64,000 nucleotides of DNA from positions 127,738-191,737 of the forward strand of contig MFYT01000008.1 of NCBI GenBank assembly GCA_001789205.1, written 5' to 3'. Position numbers and translations under genes: made by a program. The notes under the pieces were generated by a model. The model ran no database searches. It was not told where the DNA came from and saw only the letters and a program-made list of their open reading frames with translations. The DNA comes from Candidatus Raymondbacteria bacterium RIFOXYA2_FULL_49_16. GTDB taxonomy: Bacteria; Fibrobacterota; OXYB2-FULL-49-7; XYB2-FULL-49-35. Shown one piece after another: positions 51,591 to 61,822 of this stretch (its first letter is position 1; each line of letters starts with the position of its first letter).

Positions 51591-53240
51591 ATGTCACTTG
51601 ATCCCTCTGCTGGAAAACCCGCGCCGCGCCATATGCTTGCTGACATTCCCCGGCTGGTTTCTGCCTATTTTACCATGAAGCCCGACCCATCTGAAACAAG
51701 TCACCGGGTGCTCTTTGGCACCTCTGGCCACAGAGGGTCGTCATTGAAAGGATCGTTTAACGAGGACCATATTCTTGCCATATGCCAGGCCATTTGCCAG
51801 GTCCGCGCTGAAAACAAGGTTAAGGGCCCGCTCTTCCTGGGCATGGATACCCATGCGCTCTCGTATCCCGCATTTTGCACAGCGCTTGAAGTTTTTGGAG
51901 GCAATGGCATTACCATCCGTATCCAGACTACCGGTCAGGGTTTTACACCAACGCCTGTGGTATCGCACGCTATCCTGGTCGCAAACAAGGGCAAAAAAGA
52001 GGCCTTTGCTGACGGCGTCATCATTACGCCTTCGCACAATCCTCCTGAAGATGGCGGGATAAAATATAACCCTCCAAACGGAGGACCAGCAGATACAAGC
52101 ATTACTAAAAAAATCCAGAACAAGGCAAATGAACTTTTACAATCTGGCCTGAAATCCGTCAAAAGGATTCCGTTTAAAAAAGTGCTTGGCCTAGCAACAA
52201 CACAACAGTATGATTATATAAATAGTTATATCGACGATTTAAAGAATATAGTTAATGTTGATGCAATTGCAAAAAGTGGCATTAAAATGGGTGTTGATCC
52301 TCTTGGCGGCTCGGGCATTGCCTTCTGGGCGCCAATGGCGGAAAAATATAAACTAAACCTTGAGATTGTTAACAAAATTATTGATCCGACTTTCTCGTTC
52401 ATGACCGTGGACAAGGATGGGAAGATCCGCATGGATTGCTCTTCACCTTGGTCCATGGCAGGCCTCATTGGACTCAAAGACCGGTTTGATATTGCGTTTG
52501 GCAATGACCCTGATTATGACAGGCATGGCATTGTAACGCGCTCCAAAGGGCTTTTGAACCCAAATCACTATTTGTCCGTGGCAATAAGGTACCTTTTTAA
52601 AAATCGGCCTTTGTGGGCAGCAAGCGCCGCGATTGGAAAGACCCTTGTTTCAAGCGCCATGATTGACCGGATCGCTGCTGATATTGGCCGGCAACTAGTC
52701 GAGGTGCCGGTTGGCTTCAAGTGGTTTGTAGACGGCCTGATCGATGGTTCCTTTGGATTTGGCGGCGAGGAGAGCGCTGGTGCTTCGTTCCTGCGGACCA
52801 ACGGCGCTGTGTGGACAACGGACAAAGACGGCTTTATCATGGACCTGCTTGCGGCTGAGATCCTTGCCACAACAGGCAAAGACCCGGGCGAACATTACAC
52901 TGAGCTGGAAAAGAGATTCGGCTCTGCCCTGTACGAACGCATGGACGCGCCTGCCAATGCGGCCCAAAAGCAGGCGCTCTCGAATTTATCGCCGGATATG
53001 GTCACTGCGGACACACTTGCCAATGAAAAAATCCTGGCCAAGCTTACAAAAGCTCCGGGCAATAACGAGCCCATTGGCGGGCTCAAGGTTGTTACTGAAA
53101 ACGGCTGGTTTGCGGCCAGGCCATCGGGAACCGAGGATATGTACAAAATTTACGCTGAAAGTTTTAAAGGCCAGGAGCATCTGAAGAAAATACAGGATGA
53201 GGCGAGGGAGATTGTTGGGGAGACGCTGGGGAAGATATAA
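51591..53240 (+). CDS. pgm: Phosphoglucomutase (alpha-D-glucose-phosphate specific)
   Basis: 549 residues, the long bacterial Pgm type. Motifs: [19 protein letters not shown] at the start, the phosphoserine loop [20 protein letters not shown], metal loop [13 protein letters not shown], sugar loop [12 protein letters not shown], and the phosphate site [17 protein letters not shown]. Interconverts glucose 1- and 6-phosphate, feeding glycogen and UDP-glucose. Good ribosome site AAAAGGAGG 7 bases before the ATG. It converges on the glycan fusion gene. Confidence 0.97.
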
Positions 53241-53245
53241 AAGGC

Positions 53246-53280
53246 ACTAGGAGCGAGGAACGAGGAACGAGGCAGGAGAC
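53246..53280. repeat. ACTAGG / AACGAGG simple repeat, copy 1
   Basis: ACTAGGAGCGAGGAACGAGGAACGAGGCAGG, the same degenerate words as in the tracts at 55842, 59005 and 61696. It directly follows the pgm stop codon. Confidence 0.7.
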
Positions 53281-55814: not shown

Positions 55815-55841
55815 GCTTCACGTAATATAATAAAGACCAGG

Positions 55842-55922
55842 GACTAGGGACTAGGGACTAGGGACTGAAAGGCAAAACAGGAGCGAGGATCGAGACTAAA
55901 GGCAGGAATGAGGAAAGAGGAG
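55842..55922. repeat. ACTAGG / AACGAGG simple repeat, copy 2
   Basis: Starts with four CAGGGACTAG-type units (GGGACTA repeated) and continues GAGCGAGGATCGAGACTAAAGG. It fills most of the 144-base gap. A further ACTAGG at about 55955 supplies the TAG stop of the next gene. Confidence 0.75.
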
Positions 55923-55958
55923 CAGCAAAGAAAGAGAAAAACAATGCCAAAGAAGGGA

Positions 55959-57857
55959 CTAGGCAGCGGGAAGAGCGAATTTTTTCAGGAATTCCAGATG
56001 ACGAGAGGCCTCACGCTCATTGATCCTTCCATGCGTGGGCAGATTAATCACCTCCCTGCAGGCCCTTTCTGATTCAGGGCACATGCCGATCTTGTACCCA
56101 AAACGTTCCATATCTATGCCTTTGGGATGCAAGGGAATTTCGAACCATGAGCCGATTTCATAGCCTTTGCGCAATGCGCGCTGAAGCACCTGGTCCTTGT
56201 TTGCCACACGCACCGGATACCTGAGAATAACATTATCAGCATGAGGCTGCTTTTTGAGAGGCTTGAAACCAGCCAAAAGCAGTTCCTTATCGTAAAAAGC
56301 TGTGATCTTTTTTCTATGCGCCAGAAGCGCGCCTAGTGCCCGGGTATTCTTTTCACCCTCGGTAATCTGCGACTTGGCCATTTTTTTCAGATACTCCCGT
56401 GGCATTGTTCCTGCAAATTCCTCGTTGGACGAAGACCCAACCGCAAGGCCAAGTTTTGTAAGCGCACGATATGCCTGGGTAATAAGGGCATTGGTTTTGG
56501 GGTTTACCAGCAGATTGTAGGCCTTTATCTGCGCGGCAATGCGCAATTCTTCAGATAAAGATGGTATGGCAGCAGCGGCATGAATAGCAGAGACACGATC
56601 GAGTAGTGATCCCCCCTCTCCCCCTTTATTAAGGGGGGAATCATTAACCAGTAAAATCCCTCCGAGGCCAGTGGAAAACGGCTTGTTCCATTGACCTGAG
56701 AAGAATGATCCGAGGCCAAAGGTTCCACAGAGACGGCCTTTGTATGTTGAACCAAAGGCATGGCAGCAATCTTCGATAAGCGGCATATTGTTGGCCTGCG
56801 CCCATGCAAGAATTTGGTCCATGTCTTGCGCTATACCATAGGTGTGTTGGAGAATAAGGCACGAGGCACGAGGCACGAGGCGCAAGGCAAGTCTTGATGG
56901 ATCAATATTGTACGTCTCAGGGTCAATGTCAATATACTGGCACTTTGCTCCGAGGAACAGGGGAGCAGAGGGAACCATGACGCAGGTATAGCCGGACATG
57001 AGGATAGTACTACCAGGACCAATGCCCATGGCTTTGAGCAGCGCGTATAGGCCAATGCGGCCTTTGGACCAGAGAGTAACGCTGGCTGGTGAGACATTGA
57101 AAAATTGGGACAATGCGTCAATCATGACCTCACCCCCTTCCCCTGTGAGGAGAGGGGAGAAAGATTGACGAAGCAATTTCTTACGATATTCGTGCATAGA
57201 ATTGCCATGATACATAAATTCGTGGTGCAACATGAAGCCAGTGTGCGTATAAAAGGCGTTTGAGCGGGAATCGTTCGCAGCTGTTACAACCTTATATACG
57301 CCCTGATAGCCATGATCTTGAAAAAAACACTCAAGACGCTGTACAAGTTTTTTGCCAATGCCTTTGCCCTGGGCACTGTCTGAGACTGCAATGGAGAGGA
57401 GTTCGGACCTCACCCCCCTCCCCCTCTCCTGCGAGGAGAGGGGAGAAAAATCCCCCCTGCCCCTCTTCTCCTGCTTGATCCCCCCCTGCCCCCCCTTTTT
57501 AAGGGGGGCGTCCTTTGCATAGAATAAAGTTTCAAATACCTTACGAACTGTGCCTGAAGAGAAAAGGCTTGGGATAATAGCAATACCAAGAGAAAAACAA
57601 TGATGGGTTAGAACATGCATATAGCATTTTCGTATATCCAGGGTACCAGAGACAAAACCAATGACTTCGCCTTGTTCATTGCGCTCGATTAAAACACAGC
57701 TATTTGGCGCCGCTGCAATGCCTTTGTACAGGCGAGAAAGAAAACCCTGACCCAGAGAAGAGAGAAAGCCAGCGGGTATGCCCTGAATGTGCAGAACAGC
57801 TATGGCTTTAAAATCTTTGGATGATAACGTCAATTTCATTGGCAACACATGGTTCAC
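55959..57857 (-). CDS. Fusion: GNAT acetyltransferase + DegT/DnrJ aminotransferase, with in-frame repeat elements
   Basis: 632 residues from GTG 57857, overlapping the wecB stop by 4 bases; ATG 57839 is an alternative. Residues 1-230 are a GNAT domain (acetyl-CoA loop QGKGIGKKLVQ, then NAFYTHTGF). From about 245 on is a PLP aminotransferase: SGYTCVMVPSA, LIEDCCHAFGSTYKG with the PLP-binding Asp, and GQWNKPFSTGLGG with the PLP Lys. Together they could aminate a 4-keto sugar and N-acetylate it. Four palindromic elements lie inside the frame (see 56609, 57128, 57407, 57478). One pair sits just before a GNAT beta strand, adding about 35 residues. Whether the enzyme still folds is unknown. The stop codon lies in an ACTAGG repeat. 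Confidence 0.85.
   Translation of the reverse strand: MNHVLPMKLTLSSKDFKAIAVLHIQGIPAGFLSSLGQGFLSRLYKGIAAAPNSCVLIERNEQGEVIGFVSGTLDIRKCYMHVLTHHCFSLGIAIIPSLFSSGTVRKVFETLFYAKDAPLKKGGQGGIKQEKRGRGDFSPLSSQERGRGVRSELLSIAVSDSAQGKGIGKKLVQRLECFFQDHGYQGVYKVVTAANDSRSNAFYTHTGFMLHHEFMYHGNSMHEYRKKLLRQSFSPLLTGEGGEVMIDALSQFFNVSPASVTLWSKGRIGLYALLKAMGIGPGSTILMSGYTCVMVPSAPLFLGAKCQYIDIDPETYNIDPSRLALRLVPRASCLILQHTYGIAQDMDQILAWAQANNMPLIEDCCHAFGSTYKGRLCGTFGLGSFFSGQWNKPFSTGLGGILLVNDSPLNKGGEGGSLLDRVSAIHAAAAIPSLSEELRIAAQIKAYNLLVNPKTNALITQAYRALTKLGLAVGSSSNEEFAGTMPREYLKKMAKSQITEGEKNTRALGALLAHRKKITAFYDKELLLAGFKPLKKQPHADNVILRYPVRVANKDQVLQRALRKGYEIGSWFEIPLHPKGIDMERFGYKIGMCPESERACREVINLPTHGRINEREASRHLEFLKKFALPAA
56609..56643. 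repeat. GC-rich palindromic element, type 1 (copy A, inside the aminotransferase domain)
   Basis: Minus-strand reading gives DSPLNKGGEGGS with CCCCCCTT...AAGGGGG arms. It adds about a dozen codons in the loop after GGILLVN without breaking the frame. Confidence 0.8.
56855..56890. repeat. GCACGAGG repeat inside the aminotransferase coding region
   Basis: Four GCACGAGG/GCGCAAGG units, minus-strand product LALRLVPRASCLIL. The length agrees with the family, so the repeat has replaced or converted coding sequence rather than adding to it, or resembles it by chance. Confidence 0.5.
57128..57163. repeat. GC-rich palindromic element, type 2 (copy B, between GNAT and aminotransferase)
   Basis: CCTCACCCCC...GAGGAGAGGGGAGAAAG; minus-strand product SFSPLLTGEGGEV, forming the linker between the two domains. 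Confidence 0.78.
57407..57452. repeat. GC-rich palindromic element, type 2 (copy C, inside the GNAT domain)
   Basis: Nearly identical DNA to copy B but read one base out of phase: the minus-strand product is DFSPLSSQERGRGVR. The type 2 element is therefore open in two frames. Confidence 0.78.
57478..57512. repeat. GC-rich palindromic element, type 1 (copy D, inside the GNAT domain)
   Basis: Minus-strand product DAPLKKGGQGGI with GGGGGGATC at its end. A short remnant (CCCCCCTGCCCC) between copies D and C suggests repeated insertion at one spot. Confidence 0.8.
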
Positions 57858-58984
57858 TTCAATAAACTGTTAAAAATAGCCAAAATGCGCTGACTTGCCT
57901 TGCCATCGCCATACGGGTTTATGGCTGCGGCCATTCTATTATATTCGTCTTTGTTCTCAAGAAGCAATCTGACATTCGCGATAATTGTCTCCTTGTTTGC
58001 ACCAACAAGTTTTGCCGTGTTTGCTTGAACAGCCTCTGGACGCTCGGTTGTGGTGCGCATGACCAGGACCGGCTTTCCCAGACTAGGCGCTTCTTCCTGC
58101 ACGCCCCCTGAATCAGTGAGTATGAGATATGACTTTTCCATTAAAAAAACAAATTCAGGATATCCCAGGGGCGGCAGCAATTTTACGTTTGGCACATTGC
58201 CGATTATTTCGAACACGGGTTTTTGCACATTGGGATTCAGGTGCACAGGATACAAAAACAGACATTCAGGATGCAGGGCGGCAAGCTCGCGTATGGCCAG
58301 GCAGATTTCCCTAAAACCAGTCCCGAAATTCTCCCGCCTATGGCCAGTGATTAAAACCATTTTTGAAAGATCAGCGGGCAAACCCAGGCCGGTGAGTTTT
58401 TCCATGAGCTCTGGGCCATGCGTCTTGTTTTTTTCCCGCATATATAAAAGAGCGTCAATCGCCGTGTTGCCTGTTACGTGGATTTTTTCGGGCCCTACAT
58501 TTTCCCTGAGCAAATTTTGCCTGGCCCATTTGGTGGGCGCCAAATGCAGGTCTGCCACGCATGCAGCCACTCTCCTGTTTATCTCCTCGGGAAAGGGCGA
58601 ATACTTGTCCCCTGTGCGCAGGCCTGCCTCAATGTGCGCTACCTTTATATTATTATAATACGCGGCAAGCGAGGCTGCCATGACAGTCGTGGTATCGCCC
58701 TGCACAAAGATCCAGTCTGGCTTTTCCCTGGCCAATAGGTCGTTTACGCTGTTGATAATGCGGCCCGTAAGCGATGCCAGGGTCTGGTTTTCCTGCATAA
58801 GGTTGAGGTCAAAATCGGGCTTTATTGAAAAAATATTGAGCATTTGATCGAGAAGCTGCCTGTGCTGGCCAGTAACACAGACTTGCACGGAAAATGGGGC
58901 GCCATGGGCCCGGAAGGCAGCGATAACCGGCGCGAGCTTAATTACCTCGGGACGGGTGCCGAGAACAAAAAGGAGATTTGCCAT
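57854..58984 (-). CDS. wecB: UDP-N-acetylglucosamine 2-epimerase (non-hydrolysing)
   Basis: 376 residues, standard length. Makes UDP-ManNAc from UDP-GlcNAc. Motifs: LGTRPEVIKLAPVI, TGQHRQLLDQML, VQGDTTTVMAASLAA, HIEAGLRTGDKYSPFPEEINRR, ITGHRRENFG and DSGGVQEEAPSLGKPVLVMR. No element insertions are visible in it, unlike its neighbours. It might instead work on a different HexNAc in the same glycan. Confidence 0.96.
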   Translation of the reverse strand: MANLLFVLGTRPEVIKLAPVIAAFRAHGAPFSVQVCVTGQHRQLLDQMLNIFSIKPDFDLNLMQENQTLASLTGRIINSVNDLLAREKPDWIFVQGDTTTVMAASLAAYYNNIKVAHIEAGLRTGDKYSPFPEEINRRVAACVADLHLAPTKWARQNLLRENVGPEKIHVTGNTAIDALLYMREKNKTHGPELMEKLTGLGLPADLSKMVLITGHRRENFGTGFREICLAIRELAALHPECLFLYPVHLNPNVQKPVFEIIGNVPNVKLLPPLGYPEFVFLMEKSYLILTDSGGVQEEAPSLGKPVLVMRTTTERPEAVQANTAKLVGANKETIIANVRLLLENKDEYNRMAAAINPYGDGKASQRILAIFNSLLK

Positions 58985-59004
58985 TCGTTAAAGATAATAT
59001 ACAA

Positions 59005-59170
59005 AAGGGACTAGGGACTAGGTAAGAGGGACTAGGAAAGGCAAAAAAACAGGAACGAGGAACGAGACTAAAGGCAGGAAAAAGGATCGAGGCACGAGGA
59101 ACGAGACTGGAGGCAGGGACTAGGTGCAAGGAAGAGGAAGGCGAAACAAGAACGAGGAAAGGCAAAATTA
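59005..59170. repeat. ACTAGG / AACGAGG simple repeat, copy 3 (longest)
   Basis: About 165 bases mixing GGGACTAGG, AACGAGGAACGAGACTAAAGGCAGG and GGCACGAGG words. It occupies almost the whole 212-base gap between wecB and the glycosyltransferase, leaving no obvious promoter. Confidence 0.8.
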
Positions 59171-59196
59171 AGACCAGGCTGACCAGGCAATAAAAA

Positions 59197-60357
59197 TCAG
59201 GACTTGTTCGCGTATGTTTTGAGCCAGAGCTGGACGATTTTTGCATCGTCAAAATGGCTCGCAATGCGCTGATAGCCTGATTGGCCGAATTTTTGTTGCA
59301 AGGATTGGTCGAGGACCAGCTGCGCAAGGCGCTGGTTAAGCACATCCTGGTCTTCCAGTGGCACAAGAAAACCTGTTTCCTGATCAATGACCAACTCGTT
59401 TGTACCAAGAACATTTGTGGCAACCACAGGTTTTTTCAAAGCCATGGCTTCCATAAGACCCCGCGGAATGCCCTCTTTTTCAGAGGTCAGAACAACTATA
59501 TCAGCCTTGTTTATAAGCGCATGAACATGGGGGGTATAGATTATTGAAACGTGGCTGGCCAGACCTTTGGATTTGATTAGGCTATTGAGCTTTTCTTCAA
59601 GATAGCCTTTGCCAGCGATAATGCAGGTTGCATGGATGTTTTGTGAAATGAGATACTCCATGGCAGCAATGACCTTTTCCAGGCGCTTCACAGGTTCGAG
59701 ACGGGCAATGCAAAGAATGATCCCCCCCTGCCCCCCCTTAGAAAGGGGGGTATCTATGTCAAAGCACAGAGTTAACTCTGAGGTATAGTTTCTGGCATTT
59801 GATTCAATATCCTTGATGCTGACACCATTGCCTTCGAAGATAACCGGGCATTTGATGCTTTTTATGTTTTTCAGCTGTTCGTAATCGTATTTATTTTGAG
59901 AAAAAAGAATATGCCGGATTTTAGAAAACAATACTTCGATGCCCTTATATATCGCATAGCTCAGCGACTTTTGGCCTTTAAAAAAAGGCAAACCATGATA
60001 GGTATGGCAAATGAGCGGAACACCGGCCAGTTTTGCGGCAATGGCCCCTACTATGCCGGCTTTTGCCGTATGGGTATGCACAACATCAAAACGTTCTTTA
60101 CGTATAAAGCGATATAGTTTGACCACAGCAATGAGGTCTTTAATCGGCCGTATGGTCCGGGGAATGTCAATGTGGGTGAATGTACCTTTTGCTTTCCGCT
60201 GTTCGTCCGGATCTTCAAACGAGGATGCAACATGAAGGTCTATGCCTGGTGTTTGCGCCAATAGCGACAGTTTGGAATCAAGTATGGTAATTACACTCTG
60301 GTATGATGTGACGAGTTTAAGAAGCTTAATTTTGGACTGCTCCGGTGTTAGTTGCAT
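59197..60357 (-). CDS. Glycosyltransferase family 4 with an in-frame palindromic element
   Basis: 386 residues from ATG 60357 (MQLTPEQ), with AAGGAG 9 bases upstream. GT-B fold: HTHTAKAGIVGAIAAKLAGVPLICHTYHGL, FEGNGVSIKDIE, LCIARLEPVKRLEKVI, then the EX7E motif EKEGIPRGLMEAMALKKPVVATNVLGTNELV. It resembles the GT4 sugar transferases of O-antigen/Pgl pathways. A type 1 element inserts DTPLSKGGQGGI between residues just before the conserved LCIARLEP strand (59719-59755). Probably extends the lipid-linked sugar made by the two fusion enzymes, by context. Confidence 0.9.
   Translation of the reverse strand: MQLTPEQSKIKLLKLVTSYQSVITILDSKLSLLAQTPGIDLHVASSFEDPDEQRKAKGTFTHIDIPRTIRPIKDLIAVVKLYRFIRKERFDVVHTHTAKAGIVGAIAAKLAGVPLICHTYHGLPFFKGQKSLSYAIYKGIEVLFSKIRHILFSQNKYDYEQLKNIKSIKCPVIFEGNGVSIKDIESNARNYTSELTLCFDIDTPLSKGGQGGIILCIARLEPVKRLEKVIAAMEYLISQNIHATCIIAGKGYLEEKLNSLIKSKGLASHVSIIYTPHVHALINKADIVVLTSEKEGIPRGLMEAMALKKPVVATNVLGTNELVIDQETGFLVPLEDQDVLNQRLAQLVLDQSLQQKFGQSGYQRIASHFDDAKIVQLWLKTYANKS
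59719..59755. repeat. GC-rich palindromic element, type 1 (copy E, inside the GT4 gene)
   Basis: GATACCCCCC...AAGGGGGG on the minus strand, 36 bases = 12 codons, flanked by GATA/GATC. Same core as copies A and D, in a third location in the glycan genes. Confidence 0.8.
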
Positions 60358-60402
60358 GCATGACTTCTCCTTGTTATGGGAATGTAAGGCACGCATGCGT
60401 TG

Positions 60403-61695: not shown

Positions 61696-61740
61696 AGGAA
61701 CGAGGCGCGAGGATCGAGACTAAACGAAGGGACTAGGGAT
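61696..61740. repeat. ACTAGG / AACGAGG simple repeat, copy 4
   Basis: AACGAGGCGCGAGGATCGAGACTAAACGAAGGGACTAGGGA, with words GATCGAGACTAAA shared exactly with copy 2. It supplies the stop codon of the 29-residue open frame. Confidence 0.72.
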
Positions 61741-61822
61741 CATCTTCCTCATCATCTGATTCTTCGACTTCCGCGGCCACAGGCCTTGAGAAAAGCATCA
61801 AAAACAAAAAGGGCAGAAGCAT
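61733..61822 (-). CDS. Putative 29-residue secreted acidic peptide or gene remnant
   Basis: ATG 61822 reads MLLPFLFLMLFSRPVAAEVE then ESDDEEDDP and stop. It looks like a clean signal peptide (AxA site at VAAE) followed by an acidic tail, ending in the repeat tract. It may be the surviving 5' end of a larger exported-protein gene, or a chance open frame. No ribosome site is strong. Confidence 0.3.
   Translation of the reverse strand: MLLPFLFLMLFSRPVAAEVEESDDEEDDP

Follow-up and report, generated by a model that had tools for sequence, protein, structure and literature searches.

Short in-frame repeats in glycan genes of a Raymondbacteria genome probably belong to a dispersed class of intrastrand-triplex motifs

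We analyzed a 64,000-nucleotide stretch of DNA, here called the window, from Candidatus Raymondbacteria bacterium RIFOXYA2_FULL_49_16 (G000:C8:127738-191737; source genome, 5.43 Mb on 112 contigs). Five short GC-rich repeats of two sequence types, type 1 and type 2, lie inside two open reading frames (ORFs) on its reverse strand. The first ORF (55959 to 57857; 632 amino acids) combines a GNAT N-acetyltransferase domain (PF00583, E = 6.6e-11) with a DegT/DnrJ/EryC1 aminotransferase domain (PF01041, E = 4.7e-44) and holds four copies. The second (59197 to 60396; 399 amino acids) encodes a GT4-type glycosyltransferase (PF00534, E = 1.8e-33) and holds one. Both frames stay open through all of the elements, and an earlier reading made from the letters alone (the sequence-only reading), which described five GC-rich palindromes in frame at these sites, had placed every one of them correctly. 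The GC content between 53 and 61 kb is 48.0%, compared to 48.8% across the window, and this base composition gives no sign of a foreign island.

All of the copies are on the reverse strand with their host genes. Type 1 copy a (56608 to 56642, 35 nt) codes for NDSPLNKGGEGGS in an aminotransferase loop after 'GGILLVND', copy b (57477 to 57512, 36 nt) codes for KDAPLKKGGQGGI in the variable linker of the GNAT domain, and copy c (59719 to 59754, 36 nt) codes for DTPLSKGGQGGI between the two GT4 halves, just before 'IILCIARL'. Type 2 copy A (57126 to 57160) has a degenerate hairpin and codes for SFSPLLTGEGGEV at the junction between the GNAT C terminus and the ATG that opens the aminotransferase, while type 2 copy B (57406 to 57446) codes, in another frame, for DFSPLSSQERGRGV in the GNAT linker. 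A partial sixth piece, ATCCCCCCTGCCCCTCTTCTCC (57447 to 57476), bridges the two GNAT-linker copies, B and b. The comparison of protein lengths that the sequence-only reading had proposed bore it out: the inserts are absent from homologues of the window proteins, and at copy c the GT4 protein has 7 residues more than PDB 8dqd. The elements measure ~35 to 41 nt overall. The type 1 units, however, are 35 or 36 nt long; contrary to the earlier view, whole-codon length is no feature of the element, and the frame is kept by selection on the gene.

The same reading took the elements for palindromes of two separate families. A hairpin is present in both types, but it is not a simple one: each type also has a third C/G tract, the mirror image of the purine strand of the hairpin, in which T or A stands opposite A. 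Type 1 has the form GATCCCCCC-N3-CCCCCCTT-N3/4-AAGGGGGG, and type 2 has the form GACCTCACCCC-Nx-CCCCTCTCC-Nx-GGAGAGGGG. Specifically, the type 1 purine arm AAGGGGGG is followed by the tag GGGGGGAT, the mirror of that arm, and the type 2 arm AGGAGAGGGG is followed by the tag GGGGTGAGGT, also the mirror of its arm, with T facing A. Holder et al. (2015, Nucleic Acids Research; PMC4666352) gave the rule for such class II (C-G-G) intrastrand triplex motifs. The mirror tag fits the arm in two unrelated sequences, and both types follow this one described rule rather than forming two separate families.

This class II (ITxF) rule calls for three tracts of at least 8 nt, loops of 1 to 6 nt, C-G-G, T-A-A, or T-A-T triads, and at most one mismatch. 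Applied to the 64-kb window, it returned four matches, all of them at the elements (copy a, stem 9 with one mismatch; copy B, stem 11 with one mismatch; copies b and c, which also match the type 1 core), compared to none in 20 dinucleotide-preserving shuffles. It found no match in the first 53 kb, where no copies had been noticed earlier either. Most other copies in this genome satisfied the rule when the second loop was allowed to reach 26 nt, compared to 0 of 200 controls. We consider it highly probable that the five insertions are small, dispersed, non-autonomous repeats of the intrastrand-triplex-motif kind that are tolerated in frame in proteins.

Several observations weigh against this reading. 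Copy 57126 to 57160 (L012) fails the strict rule and passes only with two mismatches, and hairpin energy alone is weak in four of the five copies (z = -0.2 to -2.0). For the five window copies, we found no empty site at the DNA level among the nearest relatives compared, which share only the phylum with this genome; a protein search with the window's aminotransferase over genome contigs returned no relative. No mover was found. Moreover, TM-ECO, the Escherichia coli motif of Holder et al., is always intergenic in strain MG1655, unlike the window copies, and its in vivo footprint showed no protection, leaving triplex formation in living cells unproven (PMC4666352). The window repeats may fold as triplexes in the cell. 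It has to be weighed whether the tracts are kept for a G-quadruplex instead, as the G6-N2/3-G6 runs could form one and Holder et al. discuss such competition. We think this quite improbable, because a triplex, unlike a quadruplex, predicts both the C-rich arm of the hairpin and the T-for-A changes in the type 2 mirror, and nuclear magnetic resonance (NMR) of TM-ECO oligonucleotides gave a triplex, with ~18 imino signals (PMC4666352).

The window copies are genuine dispersed repeats, and chance is excluded. The type 1 core CCCCCCTT-N4-AAGGGGGG (one mismatch) occurs at nine places in the genome and the type 2 core (two mismatches) at six, compared to none for the reversed control pattern in each case, so that the elements are present elsewhere in the genome, as the sequence-only reading required. 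Of the type 1 cores, three fall inside 3.1 kb, with an estimated chance probability of ~3e-5. The gapped pattern GATCCCCC..CCCCTT..AAGGGG recovered further copies in two layouts. In the compact layout, to which the window copies belong, the tag lies 2 to 4 nt from the hairpin. In the long two-sided layout, which spans ~100 bp, the same tag lies ~20 to 22 nt from the hairpin on each side, and the intervening 20- to 22-nt stretches are unconserved. Type 2 has the same two layouts, and long two-sided forms of the two types were seen in this genome (G000) at L005, L007, L008, L100, L104, L235, L239, and L240. Many copies outside the window are apparently intergenic, including several directly 5' of start codons. 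A PabB-like gene contains a further type 2 copy (L013), which is in frame and does not interrupt the conserved PabB domain.

In named genomes, at least 116 stretches carry exact type 1 elements. Hosts among the matches listed include cyanobacteria, Geomonas/Geobacter, Nitrospirota, Thiobacillus, Methylomirabilota, candidate phyla radiation (CPR) bacteria, and others; one type 1-rich genome belongs to a genus with a single member. In ten checked proteins with strong Pfam matches, including ArgS, BioA, TrpB, PurL, UvrA, and RecG, the element is in frame. It accounts for ~18 extra residues in BioA relative to 3dod, and TrpB has two inserts of 18 and 7 extra residues. Because different frames are used across host proteins, conservation does not lie in the peptide, and the element DNA occurs on both strands and between genes. 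We also considered open reading in all six frames as a rule for the element. Of 126 exact copies, 39 have no stop in any of the six frames, compared to 11% of random 34-mers; such openness helps but is no rule. These data bear on a protein-level explanation, in which the extra residues would be low-complexity linkers of an ordinary kind that arose by protein evolution. In its favor, all homologues have a variable linker at the GNAT site. However, the recurrence of the same DNA in different frames, on both strands, and between genes already refutes this explanation, DNA conservation crosses phyla, and we leave it practically no chance.

The long-loop type 1 pattern occurred in 16 of 391 genomes, although tandem compact copies account for some of these matches. 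Genome G317 had 44 to 50 matches to the pattern, and in that genome as well as at L127, L199, G387, and G344 a small GC-rich hairpin (e.g., GGCGCTGAAAGCGCC) lies within the second loop, between the two G-tracts. Searches of plasmids and viruses yielded mostly cyanobacterial plasmids and only five viral contigs; with so few viral contigs, phage carriage is unlikely to be the main route. Rfam contained no match to the elements.

Gain or loss of the element could be followed in Geomonas, a different genus from that of the window's genome. The recG gene of Geomonas sp. Red32 has an in-frame copy, and the insert is absent from seven relatives. At two more sites in Geomonas anaerohicana, the position in congeners is occupied by type 1, by a repeat resembling type 2, or by neither, with a short gap instead. 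This comparison shows that the element is gained or lost and that the two types share sites. With in-frame copies in conserved enzymes and presence that varies among congeners of another genus, the earlier suggestion of a protein-tolerated repeat with no known mover held up. At the Geomonas anaerohicana sites (L210, 660 to 1220 and 6230 to 6780, compared with L284 to L301), different repeat families occupy the same positions among congeners, as if these were insertion hot spots.

The tag beside the hairpin could be a guide sequence, and the repeats could be REP/REPIN-type elements moved by a RAYT (Y1 tyrosine) transposase. The layout of tag and hairpin and the inverted pairs are REPIN-like, REPs are known inside ORFs, and the window's genome has four Y1_Tnp genes. 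However, no element lies within 1.5 kb of any of the four. Elsewhere, a Y1 gene is present at only 2 of 116 element loci, and the one at L180 has its own, unrelated terminal repeats. The flanks at the foot of the hairpin showed neither GTAG nor a constant CGTC; the tag is ATCCCCCC or CTCACCCC, and CGTC occurs at copy b but not at the other copies. The Y1 loci give no support for a dedicated RAYT as the mover, although a Y1 protein may act in trans. The RAYT check proposed by the sequence-only reading tied no such gene to the elements, and we hold the REP/REPIN explanation as a whole to be unlikely. By eye, no clear target duplication was visible at the ~100-bp long forms (GATCCCCCC ends), and the search for a transposon partner covered Y1 genes only.

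A regulatory role is another explanation for the position of the copies. The folded strand might slow the polymerase or ribosome in glycan genes, or an element might supply a ribosome-binding site (RBS) to the aminotransferase domain. Five copies, three of type 1 and two of type 2, are clustered in 3.1 kb, several other copies lie just 5' of start codons, and the junction copy runs straight into an ATG, reading GGGGGTGAGGTC-ATG on the coding strand (57126 to 57165). However, the genes that carry copies are unrelated, their hosts span many phyla, and the frames differ, and Holder et al. saw no link of the motif to gene function or position (PMC4666352). We therefore judge a regulatory role improbable for the repeats in general. 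The junction copy itself may supply an RBS for the aminotransferase domain or bridge two once-separate genes. Its position, directly before the ATG, also makes the fusion uncertain: the gene that had been called fused is a single ORF, but whether this is a true GNAT/aminotransferase fusion is not certain. GNAT homologues in genomes of the same phylum are not joined to an aminotransferase.

If the insertions are triplex-motif repeats, as we favor, the C/T-rich arm and its G/A-rich complement would form a hairpin, the adjacent third tract would mirror the purine arm, and one strand could fold back twice into a C-G-G triplex, with type 1 and type 2 being two sequence versions of one design. The repeats would be mainly intergenic with fast turnover, and some would land in coding sequence, where frame-keeping copies in linkers or surface loops would be tolerated, presumably as neutral insertions. 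The encoded Pro/Gly-rich peptide (SPLxKGGxGG or that of other frames) would be a passenger. For copying, we favor two routes: a single-strand transposase of the HUH/Y1 type might act in trans, or the template might be switched at the folded strand. In this genome, both sequence versions exist in compact (second loop, 0 to 6 nt) and two-sided extended (~20 to 22 nt of unconserved loop on each side) forms. A broader proposal is that a single class of mobile DNA, defined by triplex geometry instead of sequence, has spread independently through many phyla, regularly altering essential enzymes in frame, and that the copying machinery recognizes the geometry itself, as the two parallel forms would suggest; we offer this tentatively and would not yet bet on it.

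A third repeat, missed by the sequence-only reading, lies in the same gene as four of the copies. It is a heptad array, (AGGCACG)n, at 56857 to 56887 on the reverse strand, which codes for LVPRASC in the aminotransferase and causes no net change in length relative to homologues. Arrays of 7-nt units (AGGGACT, AGGAACG, AGGCACG, and variants) also occur at 53234 to 53280, 55830 to 55930, 58991 to 59170, and 61698 to 61744 and at dozens of places genome-wide, with some opposite-strand pairs ~100 nt apart. In a PurL from Nitrospinota (L229), the type 1 insert is accompanied by the heptad-like repeat peptides IRSQKSEVRSQN and SLVTHHSSLITH inside the ORF. Heptanucleotide elements inside genes have been recorded in Geobacter metallireducens (PMC2700814).

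Our reading joins triplex-forming repeats, reported as intergenic, with the in-frame intragenic repeats of Geobacter, REPs, and Rickettsia palindromic elements (RPEs), literatures that stand apart in the papers searched. It provides a simple rule for finding such inserts and a panel of enzymes (BioA, ArgS, TrpB, PurL, UvrA, and RecG) for studying tolerance and copying. It is also a warning for annotation, as PLxKGGxGG-type stretches would be passengers of a DNA repeat and no protein motif.

Among known systems, the class II motif TM-ECO shares the C-stem, the G-stem, the mirror G-tract, and the short loops. Type 2 matches its pattern, CCCTCNCCC..GGGNGAGGG..GGGNGAGGG, but for a few positions, whereas the type 1 sequence differs (PMC4666352). 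TM-ECO is likewise common in cyanobacteria, forms inverted pairs, and is unstable at its sites among related strains, a trait seen here among Geomonas congeners. The search of Holder et al. was limited to loops of 1 to 6 nt, and the forms with a 20- to 22-nt second loop in the window's genome fall outside it. The REPs reported in frame in ORFs, including uvrA, in 2013 (PMC3733652) are also short palindromes with a one-sided tag that occur as monomers and inverted dimers, but they are tagged with GTAG/CGTC, and here we found neither that tag nor a linked RAYT. The analogy with RPEs drawn by the sequence-only reading is good in concept: in both cases, palindromic inserts lie in frame in conserved genes, are absent from homologues, and have no known mover. 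In contrast, RPEs, which are on record along with other intragenic repeats (PMC2229807), are 105- to 146-bp units specific to Rickettsia, while the elements described here are ~35 to 41 nt, carry a third mirror tract, and occur in many phyla. A multicopy family inserted in genes was described in 2010 in Geobacter (Citrifermentans) bemidjiensis (PMC2996986), whose relative Citrifermentans bremense carries exact type 1 (L125). The main text of that report names no sequence, and it is likely but unproven that this family is type 1. Literature searches by peptide (PLSKGG and similar) and by the type 1 hairpin sequence returned nothing relevant. In-frame intragenic repeats and the triplex motif itself are already on record, while the recognition that in-gene repeats of this kind are triplex motifs, their occurrence across many phyla, and their long-loop versions seem to be new relative to searchable open papers.
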